Shown: positions 11,410 to 36,971, counted from the stretch's first letter. The stretch is 36,971 nt of DNA from an uncultured bacterium (GCA_903844055.1 CAIMSF010000111.1:1-36971); one strand, 5' to 3'. Notes: generated by a model not told the origin, from the letters alone. A program made the numbers and translations.

Positions 11410-11444
11410 GTGGGACAACTAGACCCATTCGAAGAGGTGATTTT

Positions 11445-12263
11445 ATGCATCATGCGACACTGATTTTTCTCGCATCGGTTTCCGAAATCAAGGAGTCCTG
11501 GTGGATGTACGCGCTGGCCGCGTTCGTCACGCTGTTCATCCTGGGCGGGTCCTTGTTCTTCGCCCGCAACGCGTACGTGCAAAGCAAGAAACTCGGGATG
11601 TCGAAGGAACTGGTGAAGAAGGCGGTCGTCAGTTCCGTCAGTTTCTCGGTCCTTCCTTCCGTCGGTATCTTCATCGGCGTCATCACGATGTCCGGCATGC
11701 TCGGGATTCCGCTGCCGTGGATCCGCCTGTCGGTCGTCGGCGCCCTCCATTATGAATTAATGGCCGCGTCGGTCGCGGCCGACGGCATCACGCTGGCCGC
11801 GATGACGACCGAGAACCTCGTGACGATCGCCTTCGTCATGACGCTCTCGATCCTCTGGGGCGGTCTGTTCGCCATCTTCTTCCTCAAGAAGTATCAGACC
11901 AAGGTGATCAGCAAGGCCACCGGTTCAGGCAACAAAGGATTTGGGAAATTCCTCTTCGACGCCGTCTTCATCGGGATGATCTCGGCCTATGTCGGCGACG
12001 CCGTCGCGAAGATCGTGAAGTATGACACGAGGGTCGTGATCGACGGCGCATACGCGCTCGACGGGATGGGCAACTACATCCTGGAGGACCACAAGACCTT
12101 CGTCCCGATCATCGTGCTGCTTTCGGCGATGGCCGCGATGGCGTTCTTCGATTGGCTGATCCGCAAGAAGCAGGTCAAGTGGCTCGAGAACTTCTCGCTC
12201 GCGCTCTCGATGATCTTCGGGATGATCGTGGCGGTCGTCCTGGGAATCGGAGGAATCTACTGA
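11445..12263 (+). CDS. DUF5058-family integral membrane protein
   Basis: A 272-aa membrane protein with about seven hydrophobic segments. The N-terminal half is characteristic: a TM near residues 21-40, a cytoplasmic KKLGMSKELVKKAV loop, then SVSFSVLPSVGIFIGVITMSG and LGIPLPWIRLSVVGALHYEL, the conserved core of DUF5058. The family has no established function; its repeated glycine-rich helices suggest a transporter or channel. Start ATG follows GAGGTGATTTT. Its TGA stop shares a base with the ATG of the next membrane gene, so the two are translationally coupled and probably form a complex, with a membrane-bound M20 peptidase as third partner. Confidence 0.8.
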   Translation: MHHATLIFLASVSEIKESWWMYALAAFVTLFILGGSLFFARNAYVQSKKLGMSKELVKKAVVSSVSFSVLPSVGIFIGVITMSGMLGIPLPWIRLSVVGALHYELMAASVAADGITLAAMTTENLVTIAFVMTLSILWGGLFAIFFLKKYQTKVISKATGSGNKGFGKFLFDAVFIGMISAYVGDAVAKIVKYDTRVVIDGAYALDGMGNYILEDHKTFVPIIVLLSAMAAMAFFDWLIRKKQVKWLENFSLALSMIFGMIVAVVLGIGGIY

Positions 12264-25088: not shown

Positions 25089-26291
25089 ATGAAACGGGAG
25101 CGAAACCTGAGCATGCCGAACGGCTTCCTGTATTGGCTGTCGTATCTTCCGATCAAATGGCTGTCCCGGCGTCATCGCCGCATCGTCGTCCACGACCATC
25201 TGACCGAGCCGCTCGAAGGTCCGGTCGTGATCCTCGCGAACCATCTTTCGTACTGGGATTGGGCCTATCTGCCGCAGGCGTTCCCGAAGCACCGCCTCAC
25301 CCTGATCGCCAACCGCTACTATTTCCGCCATCCGGCCATCAGATTCCTGCTTCGGCGCCTCAAGGCGATTCCCAAATCGATGCTCTATCCCGACGTCGAG
25401 GCGATCCGGAAAACCTTCCAGGCCGTACGGGACCGACGGTACATCCTGATGTTTCCGGAAGCCCGCCTCGCGACCGACGGCACGAGTCAGACGGTGACGG
25501 CCGGCACCGGGGCGTTCTTGAAAAAGCTGAATGTGCCGCTCGTTTTCGTAGAGATTTCCGGAGCGTCGCTCGCGAGTCCGAAATGGGCGAAGCATCCGCG
25601 CACGGGACTGGTCGAGATCGACGTGAAGAAGCGCGTCGATCCGGACGCGTTCGCTCCGATGTCGGCTTCCGAACTCGACGCCTTCGTCACCGCGAACATC
25701 CGCCACGACGAGTTCGAATACGCCGCCCGCACCAAAAACGTCTACCGTTCGCCCGATCTGACGGCCGGCCTCGACGGGATTCTCTACGTTTGCCCCGCTT
25801 GCGGAGCGGAGTTCACCCTCGAAGCGGGAAAGAACCACATCCGCTGCCGCGCCTGCGGACATGATGCCGAACTGCGCGACGACATGACGTTCTCTTCTTC
25901 GTTGCCAGGGATTCGGACGATCCGCGATTGGAATCTGCGCCAGCACGCGCACGAACAGACGCGGTATGAACAAGGCGGATTCGACTTTTCGATGGATGTC
26001 GACGTGCATCGGATGGACATGATGAATCCGAAGAAGGATACCTATGGGGAGGGCGTCGTGAGCGTTTCGAAGGAAGGCATCTTCTTTGACGGCGAGATCG
26101 CCGGAAAGCGCGAACGGTTCGGGTTGTCGAAAGACCAGCTGGAAGGCATCCCGTTCCGCTGCGACGACGAGTTCGAGTTCTATCACCATGGATCGCTCCA
26201 TTTCTTCCATCCGAAGGGAAACAAACACGTCTGCGCCAAGGTCGCGATTGCCTGCGACGTCATCCGCGCGAACCGCACGCCGCAACGTTGA
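25089..26291 (+). CDS. PlsC-like 1-acyl-glycerol-3-phosphate acyltransferase with zinc ribbon
   Basis: A 400-aa protein. Residues about 20-215 form a PlsC/LPLAT acyltransferase: the HX4D motif as NHLSYWD (H52, D57), LIANRYYFRHP, and FPEAR (122-126) in the place of the usual FPEGT. Residues about 232-260 form a four-cysteine zinc ribbon (C235, C238, C253, C256; CPACG...CRACG). The rest (about 265-400) is an unrecognised domain with beta strands (GVVSVSKEGIFFDGEIAGKRERFGLS) and aromatic/His-rich EFYHHGSLHFFHPKGNKH. The plain enzyme is about 200-250 aa, so about 170 residues are extra. Start ATG follows GAGAGGAGGCGTTGCG. The enzyme would act at the membrane inner face in phospholipid synthesis, possibly regulated by the added domain. 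The gene stands alone. Confidence 0.83.
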   Translation: MKRERNLSMPNGFLYWLSYLPIKWLSRRHRRIVVHDHLTEPLEGPVVILANHLSYWDWAYLPQAFPKHRLTLIANRYYFRHPAIRFLLRRLKAIPKSMLYPDVEAIRKTFQAVRDRRYILMFPEARLATDGTSQTVTAGTGAFLKKLNVPLVFVEISGASLASPKWAKHPRTGLVEIDVKKRVDPDAFAPMSASELDAFVTANIRHDEFEYAARTKNVYRSPDLTAGLDGILYVCPACGAEFTLEAGKNHIRCRACGHDAELRDDMTFSSSLPGIRTIRDWNLRQHAHEQTRYEQGGFDFSMDVDVHRMDMMNPKKDTYGEGVVSVSKEGIFFDGEIAGKRERFGLSKDQLEGIPFRCDDEFEFYHHGSLHFFHPKGNKHVCAKVAIACDVIRANRTPQR

Positions 26292-26342
26292 ATGAAATCG
26301 TGCATGCCTCCGTCATCGCATCGATGGCGAGGGAAAAAATCC

Positions 26343-26373
26343 GGACAGGACCTCCATCGTCTTGTCCTTTTTC
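26343..26373 (+). terminator. Rho-independent terminator of the acyltransferase gene
   Basis: GGACAGGA / TCTTGTCC imperfect stem with a 9-base loop, followed by TTTTTCTT. Confidence 0.65.
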
Positions 26374-26417
26374 TTATATGCGGATGTGAAAGTCGGATGG
26401 GATTTTGCTAAACCTTC

Positions 26418-26446
26418 TTGACAGCGCTTTCTTCTTGTTGTAGGAT
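26418..26446 (+). promoter_or_regulatory. sigma-A promoter of the ribosyl-salvage operon
   Basis: Perfect -35 TTGACA (26418-26423), a 17-base spacer and -10 TAGGAT (26441-26446). The transcription start would fall in or beside the operator at 26451-26470. Confidence 0.8.
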
Positions 26447-26450
26447 AATG

Positions 26451-26481
26451 TTAGTAAAACGTTTTACTAAATCGATTTACT
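26451..26481. promoter_or_regulatory. LacI-family operator(s) over the transcription start
   Basis: TTAGTAAAACGTTTTACTAA (26451-26470) is a perfect 20-bp palindrome with the central CG typical of LacI/GalR operators. A second, shorter palindrome, TAAATCGATTTA (26468-26479), also with central CG, overlaps its right edge; the two centres are 13 bases apart. Both sit just after the -10, so binding of a repressor would block initiation. The obvious candidate is the LacI-type protein encoded as the second gene of the operon. Confidence 0.8.
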
Positions 26482-26510
26482 ATGAATTATATGTGATTGG
26501 GGAATTCCAT

Positions 26511-27440
26511 ATGAGAAAAATCGTGGTCGTCGGCAGTTTGAACATGGATATGGTATTTCGGATTCCGGCCGTCCCCAAGCGGGGGGAGACGGTGATGGGA
26601 AACGGATTTTTCATGAACGCCGGCGGCAAAGGCGCCAATCAAGCCGTCGCATGCGCCCGTCAAGGGGCCATCGTACGCATGGTCGGCAGCGTCGGATCGG
26701 ACGTGTTCGGCGATGAACTCGTCGCCGAACTCAAACAGTCCGGCGTCAGCGTCGACCACCTGCGACGCATCCCCGGGACGCCGACGGGAACCGCGCTCAT
26801 TCTGATCACGGGAAACGACAACCGGATCGTCGTCGCCGCCGGAGCTAACGGGGAAACGTCGTGCGGACAGATCGATCTGGCGCTCGCCGATGCCAATCCC
26901 GACGACGTTTATCTCACACAAATGGAAATTCCTTACGAAACGATGAAATACGGCCTCGCCGCAGCGAAGGCGAAAGGGATGTACACGATCCTGAATCCCG
27001 CTCCCGCGCGGCACCTGGACGGCGACGTGCTGAACCATGTCGATCTGATCATCCCGAACGAAACGGAGGCCGAGCACATCACCGGAATCCCGATCGGCAA
27101 TCCGCGATTCGCAAAAGAATGCATCACCCGGCTGATCGGCGAAGGCGTCCGCGAAGTCATCATCACGCTCGGTCCCGACGGGTGCGCCTACGGGAATCGA
27201 ACGGCCGTCCGGTTCGTTCCCGCATACCCTGTGAAAGTCGTCGATACGACGGCTGCCGGCGACACATTCGTGGGATCGATCGCCGTTGCGATCGCTTCCG
27301 GGGCAAGCGTCCAAGACGCGCTGCCGCTTGCCAACGCCGCCGCCGCACTCACGATCTCGCGTCTCGGAGCGCAATGTTCGATTCCCGACACTCCGGAAAT
27401 CGAAGCGTTCCTGCATCGGATGGAGGAGATCGGGCGATGA
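26511..27440 (+). CDS. rbsK: ribokinase
   Basis: Phosphorylates ribose to ribose-5-phosphate with ATP in the cytoplasm. The 309-aa product is a PfkB-family kinase: the first signature is GGKGANQAVACARQGA (residues 38-53), the substrate region is VGSLNMDMVFRIP near the N-terminus, and the second signature is DTTAAGDTFVGS (245-256) with catalytic base D251 (AAGD in place of the usual GAGD). NPAPAR and IPNETEAE are typical of RbsK rather than fructokinase. The start is the ATG at 26511 (TTGGGGAATTCC upstream, a weak RBS). The upstream in-frame codons overlap the operator and are rejected. It is first in the operon, and its stop overlaps the regulator gene (ATGA). A related nucleoside or deoxyribose kinase cannot be excluded. 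Confidence 0.9.
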   Translation: MRKIVVVGSLNMDMVFRIPAVPKRGETVMGNGFFMNAGGKGANQAVACARQGAIVRMVGSVGSDVFGDELVAELKQSGVSVDHLRRIPGTPTGTALILITGNDNRIVVAAGANGETSCGQIDLALADANPDDVYLTQMEIPYETMKYGLAAAKAKGMYTILNPAPARHLDGDVLNHVDLIIPNETEAEHITGIPIGNPRFAKECITRLIGEGVREVIITLGPDGCAYGNRTAVRFVPAYPVKVVDTTAAGDTFVGSIAVAIASGASVQDALPLANAAAALTISRLGAQCSIPDTPEIEAFLHRMEEIGR

Positions 27441-28462
27441 AGCATACGATTCGCGACATCGCTCGCGAAGCCAACGTCTCGGTCACGACGGTCTCGCTCA
27501 TCTTGAACGGCAAGCCGAATACCGTCTCGGAAGCGACCGCAGGCCGAATTCGCGAAATCGCGGCGAAATACAACTACGCCCCCAACCATTTCGCCGTCGG
27601 GCTCGTGACGAAGAAGACCAATACGATCGGACTGATCCTGCCGGACATCGCCAACACGTTCTTCGCCGAACTCGCCAAGAGCGTCGACGGCTTCTGCACC
27701 GCATCCGGATATTCGATGATCCTCTCCAACACCAACAACGATCCCGAGAAGGATCTCACGGCCGTCACGCTGCTCGTCAACCGCGGCATCGACGGACTGA
27801 TCATCGCTTTTTCGCAAGACGAGAACAAGGAGCGGAGTGCCGCCTTCATCGCGCTCCTCGACGATCTTGGCGTTCCGTTCGTCGCTCTCGACAGTTGGAT
27901 CGAAGGTCTGAAATGCTCGGGCGTCTCGATCCACCACAGCAAAGGCGGGATGATGGCGACGAACCATCTCATCTCATTGGGTCATACGCGCATCGGATGC
28001 ATCACCGGACCGCGCGGCAGCTACACGGCGGAACGCCGTCTCAAAGGGTATATTGGCGCTTTGACGGAAGCCGGCATTCCGTTCGACGAAACGCTCGTCG
28101 CAGCGGGTGACTATCAGTTCGACAGCGGCAGCAGCGCGGCCCACCTCTTGATCGACCGCGGCGTCACCGCCATCTTCGCATCCAATGATCTGATGGCATA
28201 CGGTGCGTATCAGGCCGTGCAGTCTCGTGGCCTGAACGTTCCGGATGACGTTTCGATCGTCGGCTTCGACGACCTGTTCTTCTCCAATATCCTGCAAACC
28301 CCCCTGACGACGATCCATCAATCCGTCCCGGCGCTCGGCCAAGAAGCCTGGAACCTTCTCTATGACCGCCTGAAACACGATGGGATCGACGACGAGTACC
28401 GTCAGCTCGAACCGCACCTGATCATCCGCGACAGTACGATCGCACCGAAAGGACGGAGATGA
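27437..28462 (+). CDS. LacI-family transcriptional regulator
   Basis: A 341-aa DNA-binding repressor. The N-terminal helix-turn-helix is HTIRDIAREANVSVTTVSLILNGK (residues 3-26), followed by the hinge region (PNHFAVGLVTKKTNTIGLILPDI) and a periplasmic-binding-like ligand domain (VNRGIDGLIIAF, LGHTRIGCITGP, TAIFASNDLMAYGAYQAVQSRGLNVPDDVSIVGFDDLFF). It is close to RbsR/CcpA-like members. Its place between ribokinase and the transport genes, together with the perfect CG-centred palindrome at the operon promoter, suggests it represses its own operon and is released by ribose or a related ligand. ATGA overlap with both neighbours. Confidence 0.92.
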   Translation: MKHTIRDIAREANVSVTTVSLILNGKPNTVSEATAGRIREIAAKYNYAPNHFAVGLVTKKTNTIGLILPDIANTFFAELAKSVDGFCTASGYSMILSNTNNDPEKDLTAVTLLVNRGIDGLIIAFSQDENKERSAAFIALLDDLGVPFVALDSWIEGLKCSGVSIHHSKGGMMATNHLISLGHTRIGCITGPRGSYTAERRLKGYIGALTEAGIPFDETLVAAGDYQFDSGSSAAHLLIDRGVTAIFASNDLMAYGAYQAVQSRGLNVPDDVSIVGFDDLFFSNILQTPLTTIHQSVPALGQEAWNLLYDRLKHDGIDDEYRQLEPHLIIRDSTIAPKGRR

Positions 28463-29916
28463 AAAACGTGAAAAAAATCCTGGTTCTGATGTGCCTGTGC
28501 GGACTATTGTTCGCCGTCGGGTGCACTGCGACACAGACCACCGCGCCGGTCACGACGGCGTTTTCCACAACCTCAGGTGACACCTATCCGGCCACTTTAT
28601 ACGGACGCATCCTCACCGATTCGGGCGACATGATCACCGCCGGCTTGATCATCACCAATTCCGCCGGCGACATGGTGCGCCTGAATTCGAACATCCTTTC
28701 GGGATACTGCATCCTCCTCGAAGAAGGGACGTACACGATCACCTACGTACGCGGACCGGAATATTCGACCTATGCACGGACGATCACCGTCGAGAACTAT
28801 AAGACCTACTATTTGGACGACGTGCGGTTGACGCACCTGTACGACGGTACGGAGATGCGCTGGTTCATGGGCGACCTCCACCAGCATACGACGTACAGCG
28901 ACGGTAAGCAGACCGTCGACGACGTGCTCATGTCGAACATCAACAACGGCCTTCATTATGGTTTTCTCTCCGACCACAACACGGCTGCCGGTCTGGCGGA
29001 ATGGGTACAGGGAAACCGTTTCGTCGCCGCCTATGACCGATTCGGAACTCCGATCCTGTTCCGCGCGATCCGCGCCGTCGAAGTCACGACCGATTTCGGT
29101 CACTTCCAATCCCTTGGCATCGGCAACGTCTTCGAACAGGCCGATATCAGCGTCCTGAAGGGTGACGATCCGATCGCCGACATCACCGACATGATGCAGG
29201 AAATCGTCCGTAGCGGCGGGATCGCCCAGGTCAACCATCCGTTCGCCGCTTCCTTGCTCGGTTTCCATTACTGGGAGATCGTCGAGCAATTCGATACGAT
29301 CGAGATTTGGAACGGATTGTATGAGCCGAATGCCAACGAGAACCTCGCCGCCAAGGATAAATGGTTTGAACTGCTCAACCTACACGCGGCGGGCGAAATC
29401 AAGTATTTGCCGGCGACCGGCGGGTCGGACAACCACTCGATCGTCGGTGCCTATACCGCCCGCTACGCCGATCTTTCGACCGCGGCGGGACGCTATACCG
29501 ACAGTTATCTGCGTCGCGGCGTCTACAGCGGCGTTCCGGCGACGGTACTCCATATTCCCGGAGAATTCACCGAAGAGAACATCCTGAACGCCATCAAGAA
29601 CGGCAACAGCTACATGACGAACGGTCCGATGGTCGTGGCGACGATCGATGGAATCGGCTACGGCGAGACCTACTCCCTTGACGGAGCGACCACGATTGCG
29701 ATCGACCTGTCGATTTTCTCGCGCGATCCGATGAGCCGGATCAACATCTACCTGAACGGCGAAGTCGCGATGACCCTCGATGCCGCCGAGGGATCGATGT
29801 GGTATCAGGACGCCGTCACGCTGCCGGGCGTCGAGGCGGGTGACTGGATCGTCTTCGAGGTGCTCGGAGAAGAAGCGCTGTATGCCATCACGAATCCGAT
29901 TTTCATCGGGATTTAA
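28459..29916 (+). CDS. CehA/McbA-type PHP-domain metallohydrolase lipoprotein
   Basis: A predicted surface-anchored hydrolase of 485 aa. The signal peptide ends in the lipobox FAVGC (Cys22), followed by a Thr-rich spacer and a small beta domain (about 43-125, YPATLYGRILTDSGDMITAGL). The PHP metal site is seen in GDLHQHTTYSDG (H141, H143), SDHN (D172, H173), E208/H215 (AVEVTTDFGHF), NHP (H260) and GGSDNH (D324, H326). The C-terminal 100 residues are again beta-rich (MSRINIYLNGEVAMTLD). PHP enzymes cleave phosphoesters; CehA-type members also hydrolyse carbamates and esters. Here it could strip phosphate or another group from the compound before import. The start ATG overlaps the LacI stop (ATGA). 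It is not a usual partner of ribose operons. Confidence 0.86.
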   Translation: MKNVKKILVLMCLCGLLFAVGCTATQTTAPVTTAFSTTSGDTYPATLYGRILTDSGDMITAGLIITNSAGDMVRLNSNILSGYCILLEEGTYTITYVRGPEYSTYARTITVENYKTYYLDDVRLTHLYDGTEMRWFMGDLHQHTTYSDGKQTVDDVLMSNINNGLHYGFLSDHNTAAGLAEWVQGNRFVAAYDRFGTPILFRAIRAVEVTTDFGHFQSLGIGNVFEQADISVLKGDDPIADITDMMQEIVRSGGIAQVNHPFAASLLGFHYWEIVEQFDTIEIWNGLYEPNANENLAAKDKWFELLNLHAAGEIKYLPATGGSDNHSIVGAYTARYADLSTAAGRYTDSYLRRGVYSGVPATVLHIPGEFTEENILNAIKNGNSYMTNGPMVVATIDGIGYGETYSLDGATTIAIDLSIFSRDPMSRINIYLNGEVAMTLDAAEGSMWYQDAVTLPGVEAGDWIVFEVLGEEALYAITNPIFIGI

Positions 29917-29931
29917 CACGAAAAGTGTTAA
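29913..29931 (+). promoter_or_regulatory. intercistronic hairpin TTAACAC-GAAAA-GTGTTAA
   Basis: A perfect 7-bp inverted repeat with a GAAAA loop, overlapping the PHP gene stop and lying seven bases before the RBS (CAGGAGG) of the next gene. It has no T-run. It may be an mRNA-processing or translation-tuning element, or the AT-rich DNA may be a weak operator. Confidence 0.4.
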
Positions 29932-29947
29932 TATACAGGAGGAAAAG

Positions 29948-30412
29948 ATGAAAAAAGTTTTGGGTTTGGCTCTTGCTTTGTTTGTCGCGTTCGCATTGAT
30001 CGGCTGCAACGAAGTTACCACCACGGCAGCCCCCACCACCATCTTCGCACTCGGCAGCGACACCGGCCATTATGAACCGGCCACCCTGTCCGGATGGGAA
30101 GTCACCCGGACCGTCTATCTTCAGATCATGGGTCCGAACAACACCGAACTGTTCAACGGAACGGTGACCGTCGTCTCCTCGAATCCGACATTCTATGAGG
30201 CTTTCCTCGGCGCATGTACGACCAAGGGCATCGCCCAGGTTTCCGCCACGGATTCCGGATTCATCACATCCGTCGACTCCTACGTCAACGGAACCAACAG
30301 CATGTACTGGATGGGATCCATCAACGGCGACAGCCTGCTCGTCGGCGCCAACTCCTCGCAGGTCCGCAACGGCGACTATCTGCAACTCGTCTTCGAAGCG
30401 GTCTCCTGGTAA
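29948..30412 (+). CDS. DUF4430-domain lipoprotein
   Basis: A 154-aa surface lipoprotein. The signal peptide ends in the lipobox ALIGC (Cys20), with a short Thr-rich spacer (NEVTTTAAPTT). Residues about 50-152 resemble the DUF4430 (transcobalamin C-terminal-like) fold: VYLQIMGPNNTELFNGTVTVV, TFYEAFLGACTTKGIAQ, GFITSVDSYVNGTNSMYWMGSINGDSLLVGANSSQVRNGDYLQLVFE. This small domain is found on surface proteins that bind ligands or cap another binding domain; its ligand is not known. Start ATG follows CAGGAGGAAAAG. It stands between the PHP lipoprotein and the nucleoside-binding lipoprotein, so it may help present the same ligand. Confidence 0.82.
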   Translation: MKKVLGLALALFVAFALIGCNEVTTTAAPTTIFALGSDTGHYEPATLSGWEVTRTVYLQIMGPNNTELFNGTVTVVSSNPTFYEAFLGACTTKGIAQVSATDSGFITSVDSYVNGTNSMYWMGSINGDSLLVGANSSQVRNGDYLQLVFEAVSW

Positions 30413-30466
30413 CTTGTCACCCGAAAGAACTAACTCACAGATCGACGCATCAATCCATGAATCCGG

Positions 30467-30489
30467 CTCCCGGTCATTCGAACCGGGAG
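30467..30489 (+). other. intercistronic stem-loop before the BMP gene
   Basis: CTCCCGGT / ACCGGGAG, an 8-bp GC-rich stem with a 7-base loop and no T-run, in the 109-base gap between the DUF4430 and BMP genes. It probably protects or processes the mRNA and may set a higher level for the binding protein. Confidence 0.5.
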
Positions 30490-30521
30490 TCGGGTCGCGG
30501 ACGTCGGAAGGACGGCATATC

Positions 30522-31676
30522 ATGAAAAAACTGCTTGGAACGGCTCTGGCTCTCTTGACCTTGTTTTCCATCCTTGGCTGCGGACTTGCGACGACATCGA
30601 CGACCGGCGGCGGAGAAGTCACCACGACGACCGACGACGGCATTCTGAAGGTCGTCCTCTTGGTCAACGGAAACCTCGGCGACATGTCGTTTTTCGATTC
30701 CGCCGATGCCGGGATTCAACGTCTGAACGCCGAGTACGGCGATGCGATCGACGCCACGACGATCGAGATGGGAACCAACCAGTCCGGATGGGAGACGACG
30801 CTGTACCGCGTCTCGCAGCAGGATTACAATTTGATCATCTGCGCCACCACCCAGATGCGCGAGTCGCTCCAAAAAGTCGCAAACCGTTATCCCGAAAAAC
30901 GCTATGTCATCTTCGACACGGAGATCAAGGATGGCCACGCGTCGGATTATCCGAACGTCCATTCGATCCTGTTCCGTCAGAACGAAGGCGGATTCCTCGC
31001 CGGCGTCCTTGCGGCGGCGATGGCGAACGGCACGTCCGGCATGACGGCGCCGGTGACCGCCAGCGGTAAAGTCGGATTCATCGGCGGCATGCGCAATGAC
31101 ATCATCTATGACTTCGCCGTCGGCTATGCGTCCGGCATCGCCTACGAAAACGCCCGCAGTTTGATCCGCGTCTCGCTCACGAACTCGTTCGTCGGGAACT
31201 TCAACGACTCCACCCAAGCGAAGGCACTGGCATCCGTCCAGTATACGAACGGCGCCGACGTCATCTTCGCCGCCGCCTCGCAAGCCGGCCTCGGCGTCAT
31301 CGACGCCGCACAGACCAAGACGAAGTACGTGATCGGTGTCGACTCGGACCAATACCTGTATTATGCCCAAAGCAATCCGGCGCGCGCCGGCCTGATCGTG
31401 ACCTCCGTCATGAAAAAGGTCGGAGACGTCATCTTCGATACCGTCGCCGCGTATCAGGCGGGAACGCTCGAATTCGGCGTTTTGGTCAGCTACGGCTTGG
31501 CCGAAGGCATCATCGATCTTGCGGTGAACGCGAATTACATCGCCAAAGTACCTGAGGAACTGCGCGAACGGCTGGAACTTCTCAAGGCGGCGATCATCGC
31601 CGGCGAACTCGACGTGACATCCCGTTTCGACCTCACCCTCGACGAAATCGACAACCTGTTCAACGATCTCGAATGA
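30522..31676 (+). CDS. BMP/PnrA-family nucleoside-binding lipoprotein
   Basis: The substrate-binding component of an ABC importer, 384 aa. The lipobox is SILGC (Cys20) with a Thr-rich spacer (TTSTTGGGEVTTTT). The BMP fold (PF02608) is seen in KVVLLVNGNLGDMSFFDSADAGIQRL, YNLIICATTQMRESLQKVANRYPEKRYVIFDTEI, SILFRQNEGGFLAGVLAAAM, KVGFIGGM, YASGIAYENA, NGADVIFAAASQAGLGVIDAA and YVIGVDSDQY. Known family members such as PnrA/BmpA and NupN bind purine or other nucleosides. Start ATG follows CGGAAGGACGGCATATC. A 17-base gap separates it from the ATPase gene. Confidence 0.92.
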   Translation: MKKLLGTALALLTLFSILGCGLATTSTTGGGEVTTTTDDGILKVVLLVNGNLGDMSFFDSADAGIQRLNAEYGDAIDATTIEMGTNQSGWETTLYRVSQQDYNLIICATTQMRESLQKVANRYPEKRYVIFDTEIKDGHASDYPNVHSILFRQNEGGFLAGVLAAAMANGTSGMTAPVTASGKVGFIGGMRNDIIYDFAVGYASGIAYENARSLIRVSLTNSFVGNFNDSTQAKALASVQYTNGADVIFAAASQAGLGVIDAAQTKTKYVIGVDSDQYLYYAQSNPARAGLIVTSVMKKVGDVIFDTVAAYQAGTLEFGVLVSYGLAEGIIDLAVNANYIAKVPEELRERLELLKAAIIAGELDVTSRFDLTLDEIDNLFNDLE

Positions 31677-31693
31677 ACGAAGGAGCGCTCGAC

Positions 31694-33235
31694 ATGTCCA
31701 CTCCGATTTTGCGGATGCAAGGCATCTGCAAGTCATACGGTCCCGGCATCATCGCCGCCGATGATGTTTCGTTCACCGTCGACGCCGGTGAAATCCACGC
31801 CCTCGCCGGTGAGAACGGCGCTGGCAAAACCACGCTCATGAAGATCCTTTTCGGCATGGAAAGACCCCAGAGCGGAGACATCTACATCCGTGACGAGCGA
31901 GTCCTCATCACCGATCCGAACATCGCGATGGCCCATGGCATCGGGATGGTCCATCAGCATTTCATGCTCGTCGACGACCTGACCGTCGCCGAGAACGTCA
32001 TCCTCGGCATCGAACCGAAGAAGCACGGCCTGCTCGACCGCGAAGCGGCGAGAGCGCTCGTCCGTTCGATGGCCGAACAATACGACATGTCCGTCGACCC
32101 CGATTCCTTCATCCGCGACCTATCCGTCGCGACCAAGCAGAAGGTCGAAATCCTGAAAGTCCTGGCGCGTCGCGCCGACATCGTCATCCTCGATGAACCG
32201 ACCGCCGTTCTGACCCCCCAGGAGACGAAACGGTTTTTTGAGCAGTTGTCCGCGCTTCGGAAAGCCGGACGGACGATCATCATCATCACCCACAAACTAT
32301 CGGAAATCAAAACGATCTGCGACCGCATCACGATCATGCGAAAAGGCAGGACCGTCGGGACGTACGACGTTGCATCCATATCGGAACAGGAAATCTCAAG
32401 ACGCATGATCGGCGGCGATCCGAGCCCCGACTTGATTCCGGAACCGGTCGATCCCGGTCCCGTGCTGCTTTCCGTGCAAAACGTCTCCTGTATCGCCCCA
32501 AGCGGGAAATTCGCGCTCCGTGACGTCCATTTCGATCTGCGCGGCGGCGAGATGCTCGGCATCGTCGGCGTCGAAGGCAATGGCCAGCGCGAACTGGTCG
32601 ACATTTTGACCGGACTGCGTACGGCATACGATGGCACGGTGATCCTCGCCGGCACAACGCTCCGCGGCATGTCCATCGCCCGGATCAGACATCAAGGACT
32701 CTCCTTCGTTCCCGAGGATCGGATGACCGTCGGCGTCAATCTCGACGGTTCGCTACTCGACAATGCGACGGCCGCGATCCGGGATGACCGGTCCTTCAAC
32801 GTCGGGCCATTCCAGGCCGACCGGAAATTGGCCGCATTCGCCCGACGGTTGGTGAGTCGCTACGAAGTGCAGCATGATTCCCTGCGAGAATCGATCCGCC
32901 ATCTTTCCGGCGGCAATATGCAGAAGGTCGTCTGCGGACGCGAAATCGGCATCTGCAAGACGGTTCTCGTCGCCGACCAGCCGACGCGCGGCGTCGACGT
33001 CGGCGCCGTCCGGACGATACATGACCAGATCGAATCGCTGCGCCGGCATGGCAAAGCGATCCTGCTCATCTCCAGCGACCTGACGGAAATCCGCACGCTC
33101 TGCCGGCAGGCGATCGTCCTCCACCAGGGGGAAATCGTCGCCCGAATCGACGATCTCGCGGGATGTTCGGAGGAGGAACTCGGCCTCTATATGCTCGGCC
33201 TCAAGCGACAGGACGGGAGGGGGGCGACATCATGA
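31694..33235 (+). CDS. nucleoside ABC importer ATPase, tandem NBDs (NupO-like)
   Basis: A 513-aa cytoplasmic ATPase with two nucleotide-binding domains. NBD1 has Walker A GENGAGKTT (39-47), HQHFMLVDDLTVAENV, a variant signature LSVATKQ and Walker B IVILDEPT. NBD2 has a degenerate Walker A (GVEGNGQREL), signature LSGGNMQK and VLVADQPTRGVDVG. This is the RbsA/YufO/NupO-type architecture for sugars and nucleosides. The ATG at 31694 is chosen because AAGGAGCG lies before it at good spacing; an in-frame ATG at 31673 overlaps the BMP stop and has no RBS. Its stop overlaps the first permease gene (ATGA). Confidence 0.93.
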   Translation: MSTPILRMQGICKSYGPGIIAADDVSFTVDAGEIHALAGENGAGKTTLMKILFGMERPQSGDIYIRDERVLITDPNIAMAHGIGMVHQHFMLVDDLTVAENVILGIEPKKHGLLDREAARALVRSMAEQYDMSVDPDSFIRDLSVATKQKVEILKVLARRADIVILDEPTAVLTPQETKRFFEQLSALRKAGRTIIIITHKLSEIKTICDRITIMRKGRTVGTYDVASISEQEISRRMIGGDPSPDLIPEPVDPGPVLLSVQNVSCIAPSGKFALRDVHFDLRGGEMLGIVGVEGNGQRELVDILTGLRTAYDGTVILAGTTLRGMSIARIRHQGLSFVPEDRMTVGVNLDGSLLDNATAAIRDDRSFNVGPFQADRKLAAFARRLVSRYEVQHDSLRESIRHLSGGNMQKVVCGREIGICKTVLVADQPTRGVDVGAVRTIHDQIESLRRHGKAILLISSDLTEIRTLCRQAIVLHQGEIVARIDDLAGCSEEELGLYMLGLKRQDGRGATS

Positions 33236-34386
33236 AGCGTCTTTCCGCGTTCCTCACGCTTCTTCGTTCCCGGGTCAAGGACCTGTTGTCCTCGCCTCGC
33301 CTGTTGTCCGCCATCATCGAAGGCGGTCGGATGCTGATCGCGATCTTGATCGCGTATCTCGTCGCATTCATGGTGATCGGAATCGTTTCGGACGATCCCG
33401 CGATGGCGATCCGCTGGTTCGTCCTCGGACCGTTTTCGTCGGCGACCGAATTCGGCGAGGTGCTCAAGAACGCAACCCCGCTGTTGTTCGCCGGAATCGC
33501 CGCCTGCCTCATCATCCGGGGAGGCAACTTCAACATGTTCACCGAAGGCGCCTTCTATGCCGGAGGGTTGGTCACCGCCCTTGTCGCCATCGGGTTCGAA
33601 GGACCCGGATTCCTCGCAATCGTCGTTCCGCTCGCCGCCGGAACCCTCGCGGCGATGCTGATCGGCTACATCCCGGCGAAACTAAAAGCCAAATACGAAG
33701 TCAACGAATTCGTCAGCTCGATCATGTTCAATTTCATCGTGATGTGGATCGGCATCTGGTTGATCTCGAATGTCGTGATCGACATCACTTCGGGCGACAA
33801 CGCGACCGCCCCGATACCGGACGCCTCACGTCTGCGCATCCTCATCGAGAACACGAACGTCACGACCGGACTCCTGATCGCCCTGGTCATCGCGATCATC
33901 GCCTATCTGTACATGTTCAAGACGCGCTTCGGATTCAGGCTCAGGATGACCGGAGACAACCGGGCTTTCGCCCGCGGCGTCGGGATTGACGTCGCCCGCG
34001 CCGGGATCTCGTCGCAACTCCTCGGCATCGGCGTCGCGGGTCTCGGCGGAGGCGTCGAAATCCTCGCCAACTACCATCGCTTCAACTGGAAGACGCTGCC
34101 GGGATTCGGGTTCGACGGCTTCATGGTCGCCATCATCGCGAAGAACCGTCCGCTGCTCGTGCCATTGGCCGCCCTGTTCATCGGCTATCTCCGTTCCGGC
34201 GCCGATTTGATGGCCTTCAACTCCGACGTCGCCCAGGAAGTCGTCCAGATCATCCAGGGCTTGATCCTGATCCTGGTCGCCTCCGAGGCGTTCTTCTCGA
34301 GCGCATGGTTCCGCGGGCTCCTTGCCAAACGGATGTTCCGACGCAAACGGTTCGCATCCGCGACGGAGGTGGATCGCCATGCGTGA
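33232..34386 (+). CDS. nucleoside ABC importer permease 1 (NupP/YufP-like)
   Basis: A 384-aa membrane protein of the BPD_transp_2 type with about nine TM helices. Recognisable segments are FSSATEFGEVLKNATPLLFAGIAACLIIRGGNFNMFTEGAFYAGG, PAKLKAKYEVNEFVSSIMFNFI, TRFGFRLRMTGDNRAFARGVGIDVARAGISSQLLGIGVAGLGGGVEIL (the cytoplasmic coupling region that meets the ATPase) and PGFGFDGFMVAIIAKNRPL. The start ATG overlaps the ATPase stop and follows GGGAGGGGGG. It overlaps the second permease gene by eight bases. Confidence 0.92.
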   Translation: MKRLSAFLTLLRSRVKDLLSSPRLLSAIIEGGRMLIAILIAYLVAFMVIGIVSDDPAMAIRWFVLGPFSSATEFGEVLKNATPLLFAGIAACLIIRGGNFNMFTEGAFYAGGLVTALVAIGFEGPGFLAIVVPLAAGTLAAMLIGYIPAKLKAKYEVNEFVSSIMFNFIVMWIGIWLISNVVIDITSGDNATAPIPDASRLRILIENTNVTTGLLIALVIAIIAYLYMFKTRFGFRLRMTGDNRAFARGVGIDVARAGISSQLLGIGVAGLGGGVEILANYHRFNWKTLPGFGFDGFMVAIIAKNRPLLVPLAALFIGYLRSGADLMAFNSDVAQEVVQIIQGLILILVASEAFFSSAWFRGLLAKRMFRRKRFASATEVDRHA

Positions 34387-35323
34387 GTTCTTCCAGCTTT
34401 TCGCCACGCCCGGGTTCTATGCGATGATCCTCCAGCTATCGACGCCGCTCGTCTTCGCCGCGCTCGCCGCGCTCGTCTCCAACAAGGCGGGCGTGCTCAA
34501 CATCGGCATCGAAGGCGCGATGGTTTCCGCCGCCCTTTCCGCTGCCCTGCTCAGCACCTTGACGGGTTCGGCCGCCCTCGGCGTCCTCGCCGGCGTTCTC
34601 GCCGGCATCCTGATGGGATTGTTCTTCGCGCTGTGTGCGGTTCGACTGCGCACCAACCATATCCTGGTCGGCATCGCGACCAACATCCTCGCGTCGGGCG
34701 TCGCCGTTTTCATCATCTATGCCGTCACCGGCAACAAGAGCGATTATCCCGGCATCGCGATGACGCCTTGGAACGTACCGATTCTCAAGGAGTTGCCGTT
34801 CATCGGTGAAATCCTCTTTCAAAACGCGAATCCGCTCATCTACCTCGCGGTCATCGCGGTCATCGCGGTCCGGTTCCTGTTCCGCCGCACCGTCCTCGGC
34901 GTCCGCATCCTCGCCGTCGGCAAGAACGAGGTGGCCGCGGCGTCCGTCGGCATCTCGCCCGCCCGCGTCAAGACGATCGCGCTCATGATCGCCGGAGGAC
35001 TGGCGGGATTCGGCGGAGCCTATCTCTCGCTTGGGTACATGAGCGGGTTCAACACCGGCATGGTCGCCGGCCGCGGTTTCATCGGCATCGCCGCGGAGGC
35101 AATCGGCGCCGGACATCCCGTGGCGACCGCGCTCTTCGCCGTCCTGTTCGGCGCCGTGAACGCATTCTCGCTTGCCGCGCAGACGTTCCCGTCCTTCGCG
35201 ATTCCCTACGAATTGCTCAACACGCTGCCGTATCTGACGACGACGATCGGTTTGGTGATCTACTCCGTCCTCCGCTATCGAAAGGCGCACCCATCCCCCA
35301 CCCATAAGGAGATCAAGCCATGA
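34379..35323 (+). CDS. nucleoside ABC importer permease 2 (NupQ/YufQ-like)
   Basis: A 314-aa membrane protein, second subunit of the importer channel, with about eight TM helices. Typical features are LSTPLVFAALAALVSNKAGVLNIGIEGAMVSAAL, RLRTNHILVGIATNILASGVAVFI, RTVLGVRILAVGKNEVAAASVGISPARVKTIALMIAGGLAGFGGAYLSLGYMSGFNTGMVAGRGFIGIAAEAIGAG, and the final FAIPYELLNTLPYLTT. The start ATG lies inside the end of the previous gene (8-base overlap) with GGAGGTGG before it. Its stop overlaps the ADP-ribosylglycohydrolase-like gene. Confidence 0.92.
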   Translation: MREFFQLFATPGFYAMILQLSTPLVFAALAALVSNKAGVLNIGIEGAMVSAALSAALLSTLTGSAALGVLAGVLAGILMGLFFALCAVRLRTNHILVGIATNILASGVAVFIIYAVTGNKSDYPGIAMTPWNVPILKELPFIGEILFQNANPLIYLAVIAVIAVRFLFRRTVLGVRILAVGKNEVAAASVGISPARVKTIALMIAGGLAGFGGAYLSLGYMSGFNTGMVAGRGFIGIAAEAIGAGHPVATALFAVLFGAVNAFSLAAQTFPSFAIPYELLNTLPYLTTTIGLVIYSVLRYRKAHPSPTHKEIKP

Positions 35324-36711
35324 TGAAAGCATGGGAACAAGCATATGAGCTGCTGCACGGAAGCATCCCCGTCGTCCTGAACGAGGACGAGCAGGCCTGG
35401 AAGGGAATCGCCGCATTCGAACAGATGAGCGATCTGACCTATCGGATGAAATGGCATTCGAACGTCCCCGGTTCCGGCGCGCCGGAATCGGTGATCACCG
35501 GCGCCGTCCAATCGATGGAGAACATGGGATACGACGTTACGGAAGCGGAACAGCTCCTTGACGAAGGACGTCAGGCGTTCGCTGCGGACGATCTCCGTCG
35601 CCTGATCGCGATCACCTGCAGGCTATGGAATCTGTTCGGCCGGATGATCCCCATCCCGCACCATCCGCATCGGCAGTTTCAAGTCTACGAGACATTCGAC
35701 CAGTATCGGCAGAACGTGTCGCATCCGCCGCGCACTCCCGTCGATGTCGCATCCCCGCATTTCCGATCCCGCATGTATCATGGCTGGCTCGGTCAAATCG
35801 CCGGAGGAGCGTTCGGAACCGCGCTCGAAGGCTATGTCACGAAACACCTGCACGCCACCTTCGGCGAGATCCGCGACTACGTCCGAACCCCGAACACCTA
35901 CAACGACGACATCACCTACGAACTCGCGTTCCTCGAGGCCTATCGGGTCCTTGGGCGCCGGATCACGAGCGAGGATGTCGCGCTGGCGTGGGTGTCGGTC
36001 GTACCGTTCGGCTGGTCAGCCGAGGAAATCGCGCTCAAGAACATCGGCGCGGGCATCCTGCCGCCGAAGTCCGGATACTTCAACAATCCCTACCGCGAAT
36101 GGATCGGTGCGCAGATGCGCGGCGCCATATGCGGCATGTTGGCGCCGGGCGATGCCGAAGAAGCCGCCCGTCTGGCTTTCATCGACGGGGTCGTCTCCCA
36201 TCACAACAACGGCGTTCTCGGCGAAATCTTCAATGCCGTGCTGGTCGCGTTGGCATTTACGGAAACGAATGTACGGCGTCTTTTGGAACAGTGCGTCGCG
36301 GCGATTCCCGGCGACTCGGAATACCACTCCATCGTCGCGAAGGCGCTCTCGGCCTGTCGCGCCGGCGCCGACTGGGAGTCGGTATGGACGACGCTCGAGC
36401 CCGGATTCAAGACGTACAATTGGATCCACAGTTATCCGAACGCGGCGGCGGAAGTCGTTGCCCTATGGTTCGGCAACGGCGATTTCGACGAGACGATGCA
36501 CATCGTCGGGATGATTGGATATGACGTCGACTGCAACGCCGCGCAGATCATGACCGCGATCGGCATCATGAACGACGCGGTTCCCGCCCGATGGGCATCT
36601 CCGATCGGCGAAGAGGTGGTCACCTACTGTCGCGGCATGAAACGGATGACGATCGGCAGCCTGACCGACGACACGATCGCGGCGATCGCCGCCGATTTGG
36701 CGCGGCACTAA
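35320..36711 (+). CDS. ADP-ribosylglycohydrolase (DraG/ARH) fold protein
   Basis: A 463-aa protein with an all-helical DraG/ARH fold in its C-terminal two thirds (about 150-460): YHGWLGQIAGGAFGTALEGYV (153-173), a metal-site segment NTYNDDITYELAFLEAY (192-208), VSHHNNGVLGEIFNAVLVALAF (292-313), and GYDVDCNAAQIMTAIG (400-415), which replaces the canonical GGDTDT-x-A block. The Asp pairs for two metals are kept (D196-D197, D402, D404). The first 150 residues are an added helical region. ARH enzymes cleave the N- or O-glycosidic bond to ADP-ribose; relatives cleave other ribosides. After a nucleoside importer and with a ribokinase in the same operon, it likely releases ribose from the imported compound. 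AAGGAGAT precedes two adjacent ATGs (35320, 35323). Confidence 0.86.
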   Translation: MMKAWEQAYELLHGSIPVVLNEDEQAWKGIAAFEQMSDLTYRMKWHSNVPGSGAPESVITGAVQSMENMGYDVTEAEQLLDEGRQAFAADDLRRLIAITCRLWNLFGRMIPIPHHPHRQFQVYETFDQYRQNVSHPPRTPVDVASPHFRSRMYHGWLGQIAGGAFGTALEGYVTKHLHATFGEIRDYVRTPNTYNDDITYELAFLEAYRVLGRRITSEDVALAWVSVVPFGWSAEEIALKNIGAGILPPKSGYFNNPYREWIGAQMRGAICGMLAPGDAEEAARLAFIDGVVSHHNNGVLGEIFNAVLVALAFTETNVRRLLEQCVAAIPGDSEYHSIVAKALSACRAGADWESVWTTLEPGFKTYNWIHSYPNAAAEVVALWFGNGDFDETMHIVGMIGYDVDCNAAQIMTAIGIMNDAVPARWASPIGEEVVTYCRGMKRMTIGSLTDDTIAAIAADLARH

Positions 36712-36767
36712 ACAAAAAAAACCGCCGGCGAGAGATGTGGCCATCCCGAACCGAGCGGTTTTTTGTT
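36711..36767. terminator. bidirectional terminator between converging genes
   Basis: AACAAAAAAAACCGC (36711-36725) is complementary to GCGGTTTTTTGTT (36754-36766), with a 28-base loop. There is an A-run on one side and a T-run on the other, so it can end both the plus-strand operon and the minus-strand thioredoxin-fold gene. Confidence 0.7.
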
Positions 36768-36768
36768 G

Positions 36769-36971
36769 TTATGCGACTTTGTCGATCAGGTCGAGGAAAC
36801 TCTCCGGCGGCTGGTCGCCGAGCAACTCGTACTTGTCGTTGATGACGATCTTCGGAACGCCCGAGACCTTGTAGACGCGGCTCATTTCCTGGAAGGTCTG
36901 GGCTTCGATCATCTCGCTCCGGATGAACGGGTTCTGCATCGCGAGCCGGTGCGCGGTCTGGACCGCGCCGG
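36769..36971 (-). CDS. thioredoxin/glutaredoxin-fold protein (protein disulfide oxidoreductase-like), C-terminal part
   Basis: A partial gene: the 5' part lies beyond the window end. The 66 visible residues read GAVQTAHRLAMQNPFIRS... and end SFLDLIDKVA. KVSGVPKIVINDKYELLGDQPPESFLDLI is the last part of a thioredoxin fold, with the cis-proline motif GVPK and the following beta hairpin. This arrangement is close to glutaredoxin-like/PDO thioredoxin-domain proteins. The catalytic CxxC would be upstream and cannot be seen, so activity is not shown. Stop codon complement is at 36769-36771. It converges on the ribosyl-salvage operon and shares a terminator with it. Confidence 0.78.
   Translation of the reverse strand, partial: GAVQTAHRLAMQNPFIRSEMIEAQTFQEMSRVYKVSGVPKIVINDKYELLGDQPPESFLDLIDKVA

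Follow-up and report, generated by a model that had tools for sequence, protein, structure and literature searches.

A nine-gene operon with an ARH-fold hydrolase and a BMP-type importer in an uncultured bacterium as a candidate system for ribonucleoside scavenging

The stretch of DNA analysed here in its whole length of 36,971 nucleotides (CAIMSF010000111.1, hereafter the window) corresponds to contig C111 in the genome of an uncultured bacterium (1.87 Mb, ~99% complete). The closest kin of this genome in named collections are metagenome-assembled genomes of Acholeplasmatales and Izemoplasmatales. The window contains an operon of nine co-directional genes on the plus strand (26511–36711), which encode a ribokinase, a LacI-family regulator, a PHP lipoprotein, a DUF4430 lipoprotein, a BMP lipoprotein, an ABC ATPase, two ABC permeases, and a hydrolase of the ADP-ribosylglycohydrolase (ARH) fold. 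All nine were found by family models, on the one strand and in the order given by an initial annotation of the window. In our reading, which we hold to be probable though far from certain, the operon enables ribonucleoside scavenging by a surface phosphoesterase, ABC import, an ARH-type ribosidase, and a ribokinase, and is inducible by ribose or ribonucleosides.

In the proposed pathway, a local repressor of the LacI/RbsR type would control the sole promoter. We infer that the PHP lipoprotein, located outside the cell, cleaves phosphate ester bonds in nucleotides or in short pieces of RNA; the DUF4430 lipoprotein may assist in retaining the substrate or in docking the enzyme. The BMP lipoprotein would capture the ribonucleosides set free in this way, for import through the NupOPQ-like ABC transporter. 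In the cytoplasm, the ARH-fold enzyme would act as a ribosidase of the imported compound by hydrolysing its N-ribosyl bond, and RbsK would convert the free ribose to ribose-5-phosphate. The reading is supported by the conserved gene order, sister operons with nucleoside enzymes, the BMP pocket, the intact ARH carboxylates, the likeness of the PHP protein to RNase AM, the unique operator, the lack of IunH matches in the genomes with this ARH, and the previously described yegTUV and staphylococcal gene sets. The initial annotation had proposed a single regulated unit that captures and imports a compound and then releases and phosphorylates its ribose; this logic largely holds, together with the conserved co-occurrence of the genes, whereas the proposed cargo of ADP-ribose or NAD fragments is not supported.

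The same nine-gene order is present in four other genomes (G001, G021, G043, and G026), all from Izemoplasmatales, with protein identities of ~37–93%. The contig of G026 ends within the ARH gene, and the truncated contigs of two further genomes (G014 and G019) agree as far as they reach. G043 belongs to a different family of the order, and the arrangement thus spans two Izemoplasmatales families. This conservation far exceeds chance. A scan of GTDB with the ARH alignment yielded 274 relatives, and 80 loci were examined with their flanks. PHP and/or DUF4430 genes accompany BMP, ABC, and ARH genes in 17 of the 80, so that the expected co-occurrence in related genomes was found. A BMP or permease gene is located nearby in 68 of the 80 loci, and among these 68 a BMP gene occurs in 66, the ATPase in 59, RbsK in 46, and LacI in 30. 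The 68 loci include, besides the 17 with PHP and/or DUF4430, 34 with a nucleoside hydrolase of the IunH/RihA type and 14 with a phosphorylase of the DeoD/Udp family, the last two types overlapping in part. An amidohydrolase resembling deoxyadenosine/SAH deaminases is encoded in 16 of the 68, often in IunH-type operons, and a pseudouridine-type pair of PsuG, of the pseudouridine-5'-phosphate glycosidase type (PF04227), and a PfkB kinase extends the ARH operon in two loci (L063, 11173–12369; L136, 16195–18053).

The window operon is, judging by these comparisons, a branch of a bigger family of ARH–BMP operons, which the initial annotation had missed. Operons of Clostridium, Caldanaerobacter, and other bacteria, with the order BMP-ABC-permease-permease-RihA/IunH-amidohydrolase-ARH-LacI-RbsK, have the same importer, ARH subfamily, and regulator and kinase types as the window. 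Clostridium pascui and Caldanaerobacter subterraneus are cultivated bacteria with such a sister operon. Unlike the window operon, they contain nucleoside hydrolases and often a deaminase-like enzyme, and lack PHP and DUF4430. In a maximum-likelihood tree of ARH sequences, the PHP/DUF4430 loci form one clade with a support of 100/97. IunH is found in none of the 17 PHP loci and in 34 of the 51 others (Fisher p 1e-6); this statistic carries no independent weight, since a single change on the tree accounts for the PHP group. The absence of hydrolases from PHP/DUF4430 operons is, by this tree, one evolutionary event and not repeated exclusion. The claim that ARH takes the place of a phosphorylase or hydrolase holds for this branch; elsewhere the same subfamily adjoins RihA-type hydrolases, the amidohydrolase, DeoD, and pseudouridine genes.

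The BMP/PnrA-type nucleoside-binding lipoprotein (30522–31676; PF02608, 185.8 bits) is followed by the ABC ATPase, which has two nucleotide-binding domains (31694–33235; PF00005 in two stretches), permease 1 (33232–34386; PF02653, 101 bits), and permease 2 (34379–35323; PF02653, 114 bits); the starts of the ATPase and permease 2 were picked by ribosome-binding site. A PF02608 lipoprotein, a dual-domain ATPase, and two PF02653 permeases in adjacent positions are the gene set of a BMP/PnrA-type importer. Homologues of the BMP protein in the PDB are Lbp, PnrA, BmpA, BmpD, and TmpC. The paired phenylalanines F57 and F198 and the ribose-contacting residues D132, D274, and K298 are kept in 14 of 14 sequences from both operon types. 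This set matches the base- and ribose-contacting residues reported for BmpA, BmpD, PnrA, Lbp, and TmpC (PMC13325309), with the register to BmpA numbering taken from the PnrA and Lbp alignments and motif spacing. The window protein therefore has its fold family and main nucleoside-contacting residues in common with the PnrA, BmpA, and TmpC lipoproteins, but differs from BmpA in the first loop, where, according to the motif register, Asn replaces Asp19 and Phe replaces Asn28. The pocket points to plain nucleosides as the imported compound, because it is kept both here and in sister operons with pyrimidine nucleoside hydrolases. A second BMP-ABC-permease-permease set of the window's genome (L023; G000:C171, 5073–10074, minus strand) is unlinked to ARH, and a phosphofructokinase gene adjoins it.

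The nucleoside-type pocket, shared with nucleoside-hydrolase operons, leaves the import of ADP-ribose or NAD fragments proposed by the initial annotation without support. The ARH fold is named after ADP-ribose compounds, and a surface PHP enzyme could open pyrophosphates; nevertheless, the nine genes include no pyrophosphatase of the Nudix type, and we regard the import and cleavage of ADP-ribose, NAD fragments, or another phosphorylated riboside as very unlikely. Neighbours of the isochorismatase type are confined to a few distant loci, and their scores are far under the nicotinamidase cut-off. L072 and L095 have an isochorismatase gene ahead of ARH; a link to nicotinamidase was considered for it and dropped for the same reason.

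The ARH-fold hydrolase (35320–36711; PF03747, 124.6 bits, cut-off 26.2) was predicted with a pLDDT of 94.4, and the nearest folds are those of MJ1187, ARH3, and DraG (Foldseek, TMt up to 0.75). A phmmer search of the PDB with the single ARH sequence gave no match, whereas a profile search did. The acidic metal-site residues E170, D196, D197, D402, and D404 are invariant in 55 of 55 sequences, and an N-terminal extension of ~145 residues bears an invariant VPGS motif. The fold and the dinuclear-metal carboxylates are common to the window protein and ARH1, ARH3, and DraG. The extension with VPGS, the NDDI and DVDC motifs, and the catabolic gene context set it apart from them. A second ARH of the same genome (L022; G000:C69, 8631–9992) is ~31% identical and lies in a locus without BMP; similarly distant ARHs of G002 and G012 (L026 and L028) have an RbsK-like kinase within 1–2 kb.

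The PHP lipoprotein of the CehA/McbA family (28459–29916; NF038032, 173 bits, cut-off 80) consists of a signal with the lipoprotein cysteine, an N-terminal beta domain, a PHP metallohydrolase domain, and a C-terminal beta domain. The metal ligands D139, H141, H143, D148, D172, H173, E208, H215, H260, D324, and H326 are invariant in 15 sequences. The model of the protein has a pLDDT of 82.5, and its nearest solved folds include those of PHP phosphoesterases, of RNase AM, and of a nucleotide phosphatase whose structure holds AMP. It is plausible that the protein removes a group from its substrate outside the cell.

Several observations weigh against ribonucleoside scavenging by these enzymes. 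The fold likeness of the PHP lipoprotein is partial, with a best target-normalised TM-score among PHP proteins of 0.65, and the named CehA/McbA enzymes hydrolyse carbamates. PHP homologues in two complete Bacilli genomes adjoin amylase and PTS genes and occur there without an ARH of this subfamily. The idea that the PHP protein is specific to the ARH operon was dropped on account of these two genomes, in which the homologues (L133, 8724–10115; L134, 8947–10320) are accompanied by a Dabb protein, a PfkB kinase, an alpha-amylase, and a PTS transporter. The ARH motifs are NDDI and DVDC in all 55 sequences, as opposed to S/TDDT and DxDS/T in ARH1 and ARH3, the leading Thr/Ser being replaced by Asn and the last residue by Cys. 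In sister operons, the ARH gene adjoins two nucleoside hydrolases, and its product may handle something else. Stereochemistry poses the chief difficulty. The characterized ARHs are restricted to the alpha anomer in cleaving the ribosides of ADP-ribosyl compounds (PMC9738213), whereas ordinary nucleosides are beta anomers. Accordingly, either this ARH subfamily has switched its anomer preference, or it acts on a riboside that is alpha-anomeric or otherwise unusual.

The second of these options has a specific form, in which the ARH is dedicated to a minor or modified riboside, such as nicotinamide riboside, an alpha-anomer, or a riboside whose base is charged or methylated, and DeoD or other enzymes take the ordinary imported nucleosides. 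In sister operons, RihA-type hydrolases, DeoD, and PsuG occur alongside the ARH, which is therefore probably not redundant there, and the known ARHs, which need the alpha anomer, accept alpha-NAD. Family searches, on which all genome-wide absences given here are based, detected a DeoD purine phosphorylase that exceeds the model cut-off and is not linked to the operon in six of the seven genomes of Izemoplasmatales that have this ARH; the window's genome encodes one DeoD, which also matches DeoD structures, and one MTA/SAH nucleosidase. Because DeoD is present in the genome, the ARH is not simply a substitute for a missing purine phosphorylase. On the other hand, the IunH nucleoside hydrolase was found in none of the seven genomes, that of the window included; the ARH gene is the sole glycosidase gene in operons of the window type; and a whole dedicated importer would be costly for a minor riboside. 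We consider this specialization possible but rather unlikely.

The adjacency of DeoD and ARH in some sister operons also bears on a role in which the ARH would hydrolyse alpha-ribose-1-phosphate released by nucleoside phosphorylases and so feed RbsK. Alpha-linked C1 ester chemistry is known for ARHs; however, such a reaction would waste the phosphate bond and leave unexplained why the ARH occurs beside hydrolases that already yield ribose, which makes it extremely unlikely.

A sigma-70-like promoter, TTGACA-17-TAGGAT (26418–26446, plus strand), is a consensus match, not proof, and is the only promoter-like match on both strands of the 10.7 kb from 26250 to 36971. The initial annotation had set the start of the operon at 26418; this position is that of the -35 hexamer and holds no start codon. 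Directly after the promoter, at 26453–26481 on the plus strand, lie two predicted LacI-type operators that overlap: AGTAAAACGTTTTACT, which is a perfect palindrome, and ACTAAATCGATTTACT, a near-palindrome. The 16-base first palindrome is identical in three related loci (L029, L030, and L021), and L030 also has the second near-palindrome at the same spacing. A search of the 1.87-Mb genome for the 14-base core of the operator gives a single site, even when one mismatch is tolerated. Because of this single occurrence and the identical site in the three loci, the LacI protein probably controls this operon alone. The regulator (27437–28462; PF00356 and PF13377) is closest to RbsR models but scores 262.5 bits against NF047341, the equivalog cut-off of which is 382. 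It is thus an RbsR-like member of the LacI family, not an RbsR equivalog. The upstream gene ends in a terminator-like hairpin before the promoter (26343–26367, plus strand), which was found by a consensus scan and has a 9-bp stem followed by TTTTTCTT. Another terminator-like hairpin on the plus strand ends the operon after the ARH gene (~36715–36770; minimum free energy of -27.5 kcal/mol for 36700–36780, z -2.7, TTTTTT at the end). The one promoter match, the operator palindromes, and the final hairpin make good predicted anatomy for a single transcript. A gene cut by the contig end (36770–36971, minus strand) is convergent to the operon and, by eye, encodes a DsbA/FrnE-like thioredoxin-fold protein.

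Within the operon, the 109-base gap between the DUF4430 and BMP genes (30413–30521; z -2.8) contains an RNA hairpin (30455–30495, plus strand) with no U-run after it, which had not been reported in the initial annotation. A hairpin of roughly 9–17 pairs is present in this gap in 19 of 19 related loci examined (the window, L029, L030, L034, L021, L040–L042, L044–L047, L050, L052, L053, L060, L062, L064, and L105), with per-locus z-scores of the gap between -1.6 and -7.7. The hairpin sequences are mostly without mutual resemblance, and a U-run is absent after the hairpin in most loci and short in a few (L045, L052, and L053). We infer that the hairpin sets the expression of the binding protein or protects its mRNA.

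The DUF4430 lipoprotein (29948–30412; PF14478, 35.3 versus 23.8 bits) has one domain of the SLBB beta-grasp type, and PF14478 is matched by 14 of 14 aligned homologues. The DUF4430 proteins of L045, L052, L053, L060, and L062 have ~300 residues, and the domain is duplicated in the alignment of L045 and L060; the number of domains thus varies within the operon family. A search with PADLOC gave no match for PHP, DUF4430, or ARH, and a defence role of the three was rejected on this basis.

The DUF4430 domain, together with the alpha specificity of characterized ARHs, is the starting point for a cobamide-related function, in which DUF4430 would bind a corrinoid, the PHP enzyme cut the nucleotide loop, BMP import alpha-ribazole, the alpha-linked cobamide nucleoside, and the ARH cleave the alpha bond. 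The transcobalamin-like SLBB clade has been proposed to bind B12, the window's genome contains five B12-binding domains, and its second DUF4430 gene adjoins a UroD/MtaA-like gene. However, the same BMP pocket is found in the sister operons without DUF4430, which are nucleoside operons of a general kind, a ribose-type LacI repressor is in control, and a search for Rfam families found no riboswitch or other family in the operon, the gap hairpin included. Because of the shared pocket in particular, we rate alpha-ribazole as highly improbable. The second DUF4430 lipoprotein gene (L125; G000:C123, match 11443–11688) also lies beside a small membrane protein, ECF S-component-like by eye and without a Pfam match, and this gene set suggests corrinoid salvage. 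At a further locus of the genome (L137; G000:C96), genes for a corrinoid-binding protein, a UroD-type protein, and an AraC regulator with a PocR domain are adjacent.

The operon begins with the ribokinase RbsK (26511–27440; TIGR02152, 326.9 bits, cut-off 299.65). Its genes are joined by four 4-base ATGA overlaps and one 8-base overlap, as described previously, but the other three pairs of neighbouring genes are separated by 31, 109, and 17 bases, because of which the operon is not fully coupled as had been stated. The largest gap is the one that precedes the BMP gene and holds the strong hairpin.

Sets of ARH, transporter, and kinase genes are on record in E. coli and staphylococci, and the window operon is therefore a variant with a third class of transporter, to which the surface PHP–DUF4430 pair is added. 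The combination of an ARH with a transporter and a ribokinase-type kinase was already published. In E. coli, yegTUV-yegW (ggaR) encodes an ARH-fold protein, a nucleoside-type transporter, and a PfkB-type kinase with a local repressor (PMC10819704). The three kinds of genes stand under one regulator, as in the window, but the transporter is a non-homologous MFS protein and not BMP-ABC, the GntR repressor is reported to sense ADP-glucose, and PHP and DUF4430 are missing. A staphylococcal SCC segment contains a cluster of an ARH, a cytosine/purine permease, and a ribokinase (PMC3637587, PMC3321955). It resembles the window operon in combining an ARH and a ribokinase with a nucleobase/nucleoside-type permease, and differs in that the permease is of the NCS1 type and the three genes include neither a surface hydrolase nor a regulator. 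In the open-licence literature, we found no published ARH function in nucleoside operons beyond these two sets.

Although ARH-fold proteins take their name from ADP-ribose, their gene adjoins a nucleoside importer and a ribokinase in many bacteria. Seen at scale and beside a nucleoside-type pocket, this link makes the substrate of the ARH directly testable. If alpha-riboside salvage were true, the operon would encode a pathway of cobamide degradation and would point to a role of the sets of ARH, transporter, and ribokinase in other bacteria. Should the ARH prove to be a ribosidase of general scope, names in databases would be misleading in many cases, and the operon would represent a new route for the use of RNA debris as carbon.

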